A stretch of DNA of 64,000 bases from positions 62,001 through 126,000 of the forward strand of contig AP019861.1 in assembly GCA_013426755.1 (NCBI GenBank), given 5' to 3'. The notes below the pieces were generated by a model that ran no database searches, was not told where the DNA came from, and was given only the letters and a program-made list of their open reading frames with translations. Positions 34,321-47,997 of this stretch are shown here, one piece after another. The position numbers and the translations under genes were made by a program. Every line of letters begins with the position of its first letter. The first letter of the stretch is position 1. Source of the DNA: Spirochaetota bacterium (GTDB lineage Bacteria; Spirochaetota; UBA12135; COTS27).

Positions 34321-34626
34321 CCTGAACCGATAAAACTTCAATGCATAAAACTTAAACGGGTCAAATTTCAATGCATAAAGCTTGAATGGGTTAAATTTCA
34401 ATGCATAAAGCTTGAAAGGGTTAAATTTCAATGCGTAAAACTTGAACGGGTTAAATTTCAATGCATAAAGCTTGAACGGGGTAAATTTCAATGCATAAAG
34501 CTTGAATGGGTTAAATTTCAATGCATAAAGCTTGAAAGGGGTAAATTTCAATGCATAAAGTTTGAATGGGGTAAATTTCAATACTTAAAGCTTGAATGGG
34601 TTAAATTTCAATGCATAAGACTTCAA
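34321..34626. repeat. 30-bp tandem repeat array, nine full copies plus partial ends
   Basis: Exactly 30-bp units start at 34341 and recur every 30 bp to 34581, with partial units on both sides. The consensus reads ATGCATAAAGCTTGAAYGGG then KTAAATTTCA. Because 30 is a multiple of three, the minus strand stays open and would encode repeats of LYALKFNPFK. A real protein is not supported (no start context, and the 111-codon frame is just the repeat), so I annotate it as a DNA repeat. Confidence 0.92.
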
Positions 34627-35629: not shown

Positions 35630-36427
35630 ATGAACACATCGCTTAAAAAAGAACGGTTGCCATTTTTCCCGCTCAATATCGCTGTTTTGCCTAGTGAAAA
35701 GCTGGAATTGTACATCTTTGAGGAGCGCTACGCAGAATTGGTTCATCAATGTGAAGAAAATGATCACGGTTTTGGAATTATCCCCATCTTAGGAGAAAAA
35801 TTGTTGCCTTATGGAACGGAGGTGGAAGTGCTCAAGGTTAAACGGTCATTAAAAGGAGGCACGTCGCGTATTACCGTCTGTGGGAAACGTATTTTTCAAT
35901 TGTTTTCATTTGAGACACGTATGGATGGCTTGCATCTTTACAGTGGAGGCGATGTTGTTTTTCGTAATGATAAGTTAACGGCTTCTTCAGTCGCTTCTGA
36001 TCGCAATGAAATCATAGCAAATTCAGTACATAAAGTCGATCCCCAGCTCAATAACGATGTGAAATGGGACGATTTCGATGAGGCTCAGGCTACTTCTGTA
36101 GAACGCCACTCGGGGTTGCGGCTGCAAAAACAGGTCAATGTCATGTTTATTGAGATCTGCGATCTTATCAAAAAGAAAGGTGGCTTTGCGTATTTTGATC
36201 ATGAATATTTCTCCCTAGCCAATAAGTCTCTATTGGGGTCTCCATTGAAAATCAATGGAAAGCTAGACGATTCGTATGCAATCGCAGCACAGATGGGAAA
36301 TTTCAATCTACGTGAACGCGCACGATTGATTGCAATGGATAAAGAGGAATATAGACTTAAATTTATTTACAAACGCATGAAGACATTGTTAACGGCACTT
36401 AAAAACGTTACGGGTAAAACTTCTTAA
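35630..36427 (+). CDS. LON substrate-binding domain protein
   Basis: A 265-residue protein consisting of a LON N-terminal domain without AAA+ or protease parts. The start LPFFPLNIAVLPSEKLELYIFEERY closely follows the LonN pattern LPLFPL...PG..L.L.IFE.RY, then GFGIIPI and GTSRITVCGKRIFQL. Stand-alone LonN proteins are common; their role is unclear, probably substrate or peptide binding. The region at about 110-150 is a low-conservation insert. The extreme C-terminus (FNLRERARLIAMDKEEYRLKFIYKRMKTLL) is a helical tail. ATG 35630 has only AGGA directly adjacent, too close for a normal ribosome site. Confidence 0.85.
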   Translation: MNTSLKKERLPFFPLNIAVLPSEKLELYIFEERYAELVHQCEENDHGFGIIPILGEKLLPYGTEVEVLKVKRSLKGGTSRITVCGKRIFQLFSFETRMDGLHLYSGGDVVFRNDKLTASSVASDRNEIIANSVHKVDPQLNNDVKWDDFDEAQATSVERHSGLRLQKQVNVMFIEICDLIKKKGGFAYFDHEYFSLANKSLLGSPLKINGKLDDSYAIAAQMGNFNLRERARLIAMDKEEYRLKFIYKRMKTLLTALKNVTGKTS

Positions 36428-36615
36428 GCCAGCAATGTAAATAAAATCAAGCAAGTAAGCAAGTAAGTAAATTCAAGGGTATGGGATCAATAGTATTGGA
36501 TCAGTGGTATTAGATAAATACTTAGTGTGAATATAACGTTATATGTACAATCACCGCAGCAATACTAATGTTGCCTTCATGAAAAATAATTGTATCGAAG
36601 AGACTTGTGCTAGCG

Positions 36616-37899
36616 ATGGCAAAGATTATTGTTATAGACGACGAAAAACATATAGGTGAGAGCATTGAGCGGTTATTGACCGAACAGGGATATGACTGTG
36701 AATTTTTTTCTGAGCCGAAGACTGCCTTAGCGTATTTGGTTGCTGGTGGGGACGCTGCGCTTATCCTGTTAGATGTGTGGATGCCTGAGATGGACGGATA
36801 TCTTGTTTTGAGAAAATTGCAGGAAAACGACATTAAAATACCCGTGATGGTCATGTCAGGTCATGCCAATATATCGCTATCAACACAAACATTTAAGAGG
36901 GGTGCTATAGATTTCCTAGAAAAGCCATTTCTCCCCGACGTATTGCTCGCAAAAATCAAGCAGATCCTAGAACAGGAAGGACAACGCGTCAATGCCAAAC
37001 AAGAAATTCATATCCCTAGCGCCTGTCTAGAAGAGACCACTCTGCCCCAGCGTACTATAAAAAAAAATATTGTGCTTAATGGCATCGGACTTCACAGTGG
37101 CGATCAAACAGGACTTATTTTGTCATCACTTCCTGTTGGAAGTGGAATTATTTTTGAAGACATCGCAACAGCACATACCGTCCCTGCGTTAGCAGGATAT
37201 GTGGGATCGACTGATTACGCTACGATGTTAGAATGCAGAACCTTTAAGGTGAATGTGATCGAACATCTTATGGCGGCTTTTCATATTTATGGCATTGACA
37301 ATGTTCGCGTGAAAGTATCTAATGAAGTTCCTATCTTAGATGGATCGGCATTGCCTTTCTGTGAAGCATTGGAAGCTGCTGGCATCGAAGAACAGGATGC
37401 GATGAAGCGTGTCTTTAGAGTCAAAGAACGTTATACGTGGGAGGAGAAAGCGAGTGTGGAGCCTAAGTTTATTCGGCTGGAACCTTACGATGGGTTTAAG
37501 ATTGCTTATCAATTGGATTTGCCTAAGGAGTATGGCAATCAGTACCATGAAGTTGAATTTGATTTTGAAGACCGTCAAGTGTTATTTAAACGTGAAATAG
37601 CTCCATGCCGCACGTTTGGGTTTCTAGATGAAACACAGCACTTGCAGGCGACGGGAATGGCACTGGGAGCTAACTTGGGTAATGCTTTACTGCTCCATGA
37701 TAATCGCGTGGTTAATTCTAAATTGCGTTTTCCAAATGAATTTGCTCGTCATAAGATTATAGACATATTAGGTGATTTTTATCTACTCGGGACTGGGATT
37801 TATGGGAAAATCACCGCCCGCGCTACAGGTCATCGCCACAATGTCTCTCTTATTAAAAAAGTCATCAGTCAAGTTACCGTCAATTCTTTATCTGGATAA
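36616..37899 (+). CDS. lpxC: Response-regulator receiver domain fused to LpxC (UDP-3-O-acyl-GlcNAc deacetylase)
   Basis: A 427-residue fusion. Residues 1-118 form a CheY-type receiver with acidic D8-D9, phospho-acceptor D53 in LLDVWMPEMDG, S81 and K103 in FLEKPF. Residues about 146-420 are LpxC, the zinc deacetylase for the first committed step of lipid A synthesis: VLNGIGLHSG, E216-H217 in IEHLMAA, H379 and D383 in RHKIIDILGD, and H406 in ATGHRHN. All catalytic and zinc residues are present, matching E. coli E78, H79, H238, D242 and H265. I chose ATG 36616; the frame also opens at GTG 36607. No histidine kinase is encoded nearby. A fusion would let phosphorylation tune lipid A synthesis (inference). 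Confidence 0.93.
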   Translation: MAKIIVIDDEKHIGESIERLLTEQGYDCEFFSEPKTALAYLVAGGDAALILLDVWMPEMDGYLVLRKLQENDIKIPVMVMSGHANISLSTQTFKRGAIDFLEKPFLPDVLLAKIKQILEQEGQRVNAKQEIHIPSACLEETTLPQRTIKKNIVLNGIGLHSGDQTGLILSSLPVGSGIIFEDIATAHTVPALAGYVGSTDYATMLECRTFKVNVIEHLMAAFHIYGIDNVRVKVSNEVPILDGSALPFCEALEAAGIEEQDAMKRVFRVKERYTWEEKASVEPKFIRLEPYDGFKIAYQLDLPKEYGNQYHEVEFDFEDRQVLFKREIAPCRTFGFLDETQHLQATGMALGANLGNALLLHDNRVVNSKLRFPNEFARHKIIDILGDFYLLGTGIYGKITARATGHRHNVSLIKKVISQVTVNSLSG

Positions 37900-45883: not shown

Positions 45884-46108
45884 TAGAATTTTATTATATT
45901 GAAATATGTAGAATTTTATTACATTGAAATGTGTAGAATCTTATTACATTGAAATATGTAGAATTTTGTTATATTGAAATGTGTAGAATTTTATTACATT
46001 GAAATATGTAGAATTTTGTTATATTGAAATGTGTAGAATTTTATTACATTGAAATATGTAGAATTTTGTTATATTGAAATATCTAGAATTTTATTACATT
46101 AAAATCAT
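45884..46108. repeat. 25-bp tandem repeat, nine copies, with 50-bp higher-order pattern
   Basis: Units of TAGAATTTTATTACATTGAAA plus TATG or TGTG start at 45884, 45909, 45934, 45959, 45984, 46009, 46034, 46059 and 46084. Copies 4-7 alternate ATTACATT..TATG with GTTATATT..TGTG, giving a 50-bp dimer, so the array grew by dimer duplication. Confidence 0.92.
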
Positions 46109-47367: not shown

Positions 47368-47500
47368 AGTGCTTATGATGTATGATGTGAGAGGGTTGCT
47401 ACGTGTAGTTACGTGTAATGTCAGGTGTTTATTATGTATGATTGCTACGTATGAATTCGGTATGTATTTCTCAATAGCACCACAATTTTAAAAATAACAC

Positions 47501-47772
47501 TATAAAAATAGCAATCAATGGGTCTTTTCAAGAGCAACATCATAAAAATAGCAATTGATGGGTCTTTTCAAGAATAACATCATAAAAATAGCAATTGAAG
47601 GGTTTTTTCAAGAGTAACATCGTAAAAATAGCAATTGATGGGTTTTTTCAAGAGTAACATCATAAAAATAGCAGTCAATGAGCTTTTTCAAGAGCAACAT
47701 CATAAGAATAGCAATTGATGGGTTTTTTTAAGAGTAACATCATAAAAATAGTAATCAATGGGTTTTTTCAGG
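47501..47772. repeat. 40-bp tandem repeat, six copies plus a partial
   Basis: Units start every 40 bp at 47501, 47541, 47581, 47621, 47661, 47701 and 47741 (partial). The unit is CATAAAAATAGCAATTGATG, then GGTTTTTTCAAGAGTAACAT. Copies differ at about 1-6 positions. Confidence 0.92.
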
Positions 47773-47997
47773 ATAACTTAGCATATATAACCACTATTTT
47801 TACCTGTTCTAATTTTATAGATGTGAATTTGGATATGAATTTGATTGTAGATGAATTTGATTGTATTTATCACAATGTCATATTAATATTTAATAACTCA
47901 CTCAGGTAATTAACTCCTTTTTAGTGGTTTTTAACTATTTTGACACTGTTTTATGGACGCTTGCTATGAATTAATGCTATAGTTGTTGATAACGAAT

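Follow-up and report, generated by a model that had tools for sequence, protein, structure and literature searches.

A gene of a spirochaete joins a CheY-like receiver domain to LpxC in a single polypeptide, and the available evidence supports a model by which the histidine kinase NtrY phosphorylates this receiver and thereby sets LpxC activity. The model is considered likely, with a rough probability of 0.7. No experiment shows phosphorylation or a change of activity, and the case for control of LpxC by NtrY rests on genomic evidence; phosphotransfer, the activity change and its direction are thus inferred. The receiver-LpxC fusion itself is real and conserved, and no description of it came up in the open literature searched. 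The gene is likely the working LpxC of this spirochaete, placed under a two-component system, although both the activity and the control are inferred. A bolder reading, towards which the evidence leans without compelling it, proposes that the arrangement is ancient, reaches across six or more phyla, among them that of the genus Brachyspira, and came about via a receiver-AAA+-LpxC intermediate that is still found in Nitrospinota.

The fusion lies in a window of 64,000 nucleotides (the whole stretch of DNA that was analysed) and is encoded by one open reading frame with an ATG start and no internal stop (Table 1); an alternative in-frame GTG start is present at 36607. A first-pass annotation, made from the window alone, had proposed that a complete receiver and a complete LpxC share this frame, a claim which held, as all of the residues that it named are present and invariant. 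The match to the LpxC profile PF03331 scores 270 bits (cut-off 27) and covers profile positions 1-267 of 268, and the NCBIfam LpxC equivalog TIGR00325 is likewise satisfied (232.6 bits vs a cut-off of 187.25). No domain beyond Response_reg and LpxC was found in the protein by Pfam scan, AAA+ and a Fis-type HTH both being absent. An AlphaFold2 model of the fusion, built from an alignment of 32 fused proteins, reached a pLDDT of 90.1 and a pTM of 0.87, with only residues 121-128, within the linker, falling below pLDDT 50; the model yielded confidence values and no receiver-LpxC interface. By Foldseek the LpxC part of the model matches solved LpxC (E 3e-32), and no solved structure among the listed matches, from Foldseek or from comparison of the receiver profile with solved receivers, covers both receiver and LpxC. 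The fusion is the sole LpxC in the 2.68-Mb single-contig genome searched, which also encodes LpxB. From sequence alone, the window protein is therefore taken to be a genuine LpxC, its deacetylase activity being inferred. A decayed LpxC serving as a sensor is ruled out by the invariant catalytic residues and the sole copy, and identity with LpxC-FabZ is rejected, as PRK13188 scores 200 bits vs a cut-off of 465 and the protein has no FabZ domain.

Table 1. Coordinates of the receiver-LpxC fusion gene and its parts within the window.
Feature	Position	Strand	Support
Whole gene, receiver-LpxC fusion	36616..37899	+	427 aa plus stop; full length also in relatives G001 and G002
CheY-like receiver, NtrX-like, residues 4-115	36625..36960	+	Pfam PF00072 Response_reg, E 8.5e-24, above cut-off
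D53 codon, predicted phosphorylated aspartate	36772..36774	+	invariant in 60/60 receivers
Linker, residues 116-144	36961..37047	+	AlphaFold2 model
LpxC deacetylase domain, residues 145-417	37048..37866	+	Pfam PF03331, E 2.1e-80; fold like solved LpxC
E216 and H217 codons (general base and zinc ligand by homology)	37261..37266	+	invariant; aligned with P. aeruginosa LpxC
H379-D383 codons (HKxxD, zinc ligands by homology)	37750..37764	+	H379, K380 and D383 invariant
H406 codon (catalytic histidine by homology)	37831..37833	+	invariant

Promoter and terminator sites are no more frequent than in shuffled sequence, and Rfam and tRNA scans of the window returned nothing. The gene directly upstream (35630-36427, +) encodes a lone LON substrate-binding domain without a protease (PF02190, 1.4e-9); a role for it in LpxC turnover is possible, with no functional data. 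Ahead of this gene lies a tandem array (34333-34618, period 30 bp, 9.5 copies, 90% matches), and the window is rich in minisatellites, with further intergenic arrays at 45884-46105 (period 25/50 bp, 8.9 copies of 25) and 47495-47777 (period 40 bp, 7.1 copies).

A frame error or contig join between receiver and LpxC, by which the first-pass reading would have been refuted, is excluded by relatives: the fusion is intact in G001 and G002, at 51% and 43% identity, and in G003 the receiver and LpxC halves are both open and parted only by an ‘NN’ assembly gap. The pair was found in all four examined species of the window's class of Spirochaetota. Across the phylum 107 of 393 genomes gave a match at E 1e-25, and full-length fusions occur in the window's class, throughout Brachyspiraceae and in family f43, the other families having stand-alone LpxC; the name Brachyspiraceae for family f12 rests on its Brachyspira-type Serpulina_VSP proteins, as does the assignment of the phylum to Spirochaetota. 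Outside the spirochaetes, the fusion is present in MAGs of Binatota, Nitrospirota (Thermodesulfovibrionia), Nitrospinota and Thermodesulfobacteriota (Syntrophobacterales, Syntrophorhabdales), and in MAGs assigned to Myxococcota. It thus represents an old and widespread family, and is not peculiar to this genome. In a tree, the fused LpxCs form a single clade (support 98/93) separate from the stand-alone LpxCs of spirochaetes, which argues that the fusion is old and that the usual LpxC was replaced or displaced in the spirochaetes that bear it. One apparent stand-alone LpxC, L056, falls inside the fused clade; its match begins 49 bases in from the point where both its stretch and the contig stop, and it is probably a truncated fusion. 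A wide and already characterised phospho-independent family would also have told against the first-pass reading. The family is indeed wide, but no description of a receiver-LpxC fusion was found in the open literature searched; subscription papers were outside the scope, and absence from the literature is unproven.

Both active sites are conserved across the family. The receiver residues D8, D9, D53, S81 and K103 are identical in 60/60 receivers from at least six phyla, and in the alignment of 32 fused proteins these five are invariant together with E216, H217, H379, K380, D383 and H406 of LpxC. Further evidence is provided by Nitrospinota (L057-L065, from Nitrospinota/Nitrospirota records), where proteins of 690-766 aa have the order receiver-AAA+-LpxC. 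Their AAA+ part is still recognisable as belonging to the sigma-54 activator family and keeps Walker A, but the GAFTGA loop, the acidic residues of Walker B and the arginine finger are gone; some members retain a stretch at the HTH position, ahead of LpxC. As the AAA+ part decayed while the phosphorylation site and LpxC stayed intact, selection appears to keep the phosphorylation site. From sequence alone, this AAA+ part is interpreted as a dead sigma-54 activator within an enzyme, a degenerate remnant of NtrX type. The likely route to the fusion, inferred from these three-part proteins, is that an NtrX/NtrC-type gene fused to lpxC and the middle part was then lost.

The receiver itself is likely of the NtrX type. 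When a profile of the fused-family receivers was compared with solved receivers, NtrX/NtrC-type entries matched best, with 4d6x at the top and two NtrC-family entries and 5m7n within about a bit of it; 4d6x and 5m7n are here taken to be Brucella NtrX. The NCBIfam scores of the window protein are 99 bits for FixJ, 89 bits for NtrX and 68 bits for NtrC. In a receiver tree the fused receivers fall among those of NtrX with modest support only, 121 columns being too few for firm separation.

The kinase partner is suggested by gene order in other phyla. At 15 loci from MAGs of Binatota, Nitrospirota, the Myxococcota-assigned group and others, the fusion is immediately preceded on its own strand by a histidine kinase gene, which overlaps it or is separated from it by no more than about 120 bp; these kinases are of about 735-830 aa, one being cut by a contig end. 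The C-terminal end of a kinase upstream of the fusion in L048 brings the count to 16 loci, all outside the spirochaetes. All five of the upstream kinases scanned (L037, L042, L046, L052 and L066) carry NtrY_N above the Pfam cut-off in addition to HAMP, PAS, HisKA and HATPase_c. The order DUF4390-ntrY-[receiver-LpxC] is seen in the four loci checked (L037, L041, L045 and L047), whereas spirochaetes with stand-alone LpxC have DUF4390-ntrY-ntrX (L182, L185), and ntrY-ntrX is found in further spirochaetes with NtrX (L176, L179, L187, L188 and L196); the fusion therefore occupies the NtrX slot. The window fusion is not itself an NtrX, though it stands in that slot, as it lacks AAA+ and HTH. No kinase adjoins the fusion in Nitrospinota or in the Syntrophobacterales/Syntrophorhabdales group, nor is NtrY adjacent in spirochaetes, so in these lineages the pairing is made by elimination or homology.

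In the spirochaetes, the fusion is accompanied by NtrY in the absence of NtrX. An NtrY-type kinase is present in 14 of 14 fusion-bearing spirochaete genomes searched, and no NtrX adjoins NtrY wherever the locus was read. When 12 of these 14 genomes were queried with NtrX, their closest sigma-54 regulators were only 38-43% identical, whereas the true NtrX proteins of other spirochaetes show 49-52% identity to the same query, and in a tree of sigma-54 response regulators no member from these 12 groups with NtrX. The fusion has thus likely replaced the transcription factor NtrX, transcriptional control being swapped for control of an enzyme, with the latter control inferred. However, the fusion-bearing spirochaetes may stem from only one or two events, in which case the co-occurrence with loss of NtrX amounts to few independent observations. 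In family f43 (L178, L189) the gene after an orphan NtrY encodes a protein of about 365 aa, which in L178 matches spore photoproduct lyase (PF20903, 1.1e-19). A 697-aa gene upstream of lpxC in Brachyspira was considered as a kinase and ruled out, being glyS.

The genome of the window offers few candidate partners. The first-pass statement that no kinase is encoded nearby held, as there is no HATPase_c match in the window and the nearest lies about 440 kb past its end. Searches of the genome with HATPase_c and Response_reg gave four recognisable histidine kinases and six receivers. A 737-aa kinase adjoins two receivers and a 293-aa kinase-like protein adjoins one; the two orphan kinases, which the first-pass annotation had suggested seeking, are an NtrB-like protein and a 667-aa membrane kinase next to psd. 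Three receivers have no kinase as neighbour: an NtrC/AtoC-like activator, a receiver-PP2C-like protein and receiver-LpxC. The kinase next to psd (G000:C1:2232083-2234083), unlinked to the fusion, is a divergent NtrY-type kinase: it has the AHEIKNPLTPI box, but its N-terminal half aligns only weakly with the NtrY profile and NtrY_N was not reported at E 0.001. Its assignment is supported by relatives, as psd lies directly before an NtrY-type kinase in all four class members examined (L172-L175, from G000, G001, G003 and G002 respectively) and the G002 and G003 kinases give far better matches to the NtrY profile. As such, psd is a second lipid-synthesis gene tied to NtrY in this class. The simplest pairing, inferred by elimination, is NtrB with the NtrC/AtoC-like regulator and NtrY with receiver-LpxC, with the caveat that the receiver-PP2C-like orphan also has no adjacent kinase. 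This orphan of 597 aa (L161:2980-4773, at about 2.403-2.405 Mb of G000:C1) reads by eye as a receiver, a PP2C-type phosphatase and an RsbW-like ATPase, and lies near a STAS-like protein and sugar-transferase-like genes. The LpxB of this genome (G000:C1:2410428-2411720) gives two separate matches to its profile inside a single frame of 483 aa, vs 386-389 aa in relatives, possibly reflecting an insert. The genome, though a single contig of 2.68 Mb, has a completeness score of only 75.7%, which suggests a divergent or reduced lineage.

The model proposes that NtrY, sensing the state of the envelope or of respiration, would phosphorylate D53, and that the phosphorylated receiver would change LpxC activity allosterically. 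Phosphorylation may act as a brake on LpxC, an option slightly favoured, on a weak basis, because Rhodobacter lacking NtrYX has more lpxC transcript and more LPS. The first-pass proposal that phosphorylation tunes lipid A synthesis at the protein level is supported by the 60/60 conserved sites, the 16 NtrY loci and the presence of NtrY without NtrX, phosphotransfer and the effect on LpxC remaining inferences; the small-molecule phosphodonor that it also offered is unnecessary given the unlinked NtrY-type kinase.

The main rival, which is possible and is not separated from the model by the evidence, accepts that NtrY phosphorylates the receiver but holds that the output is the stability or membrane location of LpxC, for instance near the kinase or other Lpx enzymes, and not its rate. 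In its support, E. coli LpxC is controlled by amount through FtsH and recruitment of LpxC to the inner membrane has been proposed in Neisseria (PMC12444477); NtrY is a membrane protein, and the genomic evidence fits equally. Nothing decisive stands against it, although the confident two-domain model (pLDDT 90, pTM 0.87) allows direct contact without proving it. Less plausibly, the receiver may need no phosphorylation and serve in dimerisation or docking, or offer a handle to a protease such as Lon or FtsH, the chemistry of D53 being disused. Some receivers do function without phosphorylation; the upstream neighbour of the fusion codes for an isolated LON substrate-binding domain, and proteolysis sets the amount of LpxC in other organisms (PMC12444477). 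However, this is rendered unlikely by the five phosphorylation-site residues unchanged in every receiver compared and by the ntrY genes directly upstream of the fusion at 16 loci; further, G001 shares the downstream neighbour recN, whereas the part of its sequence that was read shows no LON gene. It is also unlikely that the phosphate donor is a different kinase or acetyl phosphate, with NtrY serving some other partner. The lack of linkage between NtrY and the fusion in spirochaetes and the additional receiver-PP2C-like protein without adjacent kinase would permit this, but the operon linkage of NtrY and the fusion in other phyla and the absence of NtrX from fusion-bearing spirochaetes argue against it. 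Finally, an artefact (frame error, assembly join or chance ORF) is all but excluded by identical architecture in dozens of independent assemblies from several phyla, and no support for it was found.

The closest known system is NtrY-NtrX of Alphaproteobacteria and others, which shares the NtrY-type kinase, the NtrX-type receiver, the order DUF4390-ntrY-(receiver) and a link to lpxC and the envelope. In R. sphaeroides, lpxC transcript is 8.8-fold higher and LPS roughly doubled when NtrYX is deleted, with no NtrX site found at lpxC (PMC7240162), and NtrYX affects lpxC transcript also in Caulobacter (PMC12444477). However, NtrX is a transcription factor of the sigma-54-activator type (receiver-AAA+-HTH) acting on promoters, whereas the output of the fusion is the LpxC enzyme itself. 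Similarly, the D. vulgaris two-component regulator DVU2934 has lpxC as its single mapped target, and in Syntrophobacter fumaroxidans lpxC adjoins the operon of a DVU2934-type regulator (PMC3333781), but DVU2934 is a separate DNA-binding protein exerting transcriptional control. Stand-alone LpxC of E. coli, P. aeruginosa and A. aeolicus has the same fold and the same zinc and catalytic residues, but no receiver, and its activity in E. coli is governed through proteolysis by FtsH/LapB. LpxC-FabZ of Bacteroidota, Chlorobi and Verrucomicrobia is also an LpxC fusion protein (PMC3087551), but its partner is the C-terminal metabolic enzyme FabZ and not a receiver. A 2025 review of lipid A regulation (PMC12444477) mentions no receiver or response regulator, and the paper on the B. 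hyodysenteriae genome includes lpxC in its listing but says nothing of a response regulator. A receiver and a catalytic domain are united in one polypeptide in CheB, PleD and the HD-GYP regulators, as in the fusion. The outputs of those proteins are signalling or modification enzymes, whereas LpxC belongs to the core biosynthesis of the outer membrane and most Gram-negative bacteria cannot do without it. The fusion is placed, by inference from its domains, with response regulators having enzymatic output, LpxC being the output.

LpxC commits the cell to lipid A, the anchor of LPS, and is both a control point for LPS and a drug target, and the controls known so far are proteolysis, adaptor proteins and transcription. 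If the model is correct, the built-in receiver would constitute a direct and reversible phospho-switch on lipid A synthesis, and the fusion would show how a transcriptional two-component system turns enzymatic. The fusion further suggests that the signal of NtrY concerns the envelope, and it gives a concrete and testable idea of how the supply of LPS may be set in Brachyspira and several deep lineages.
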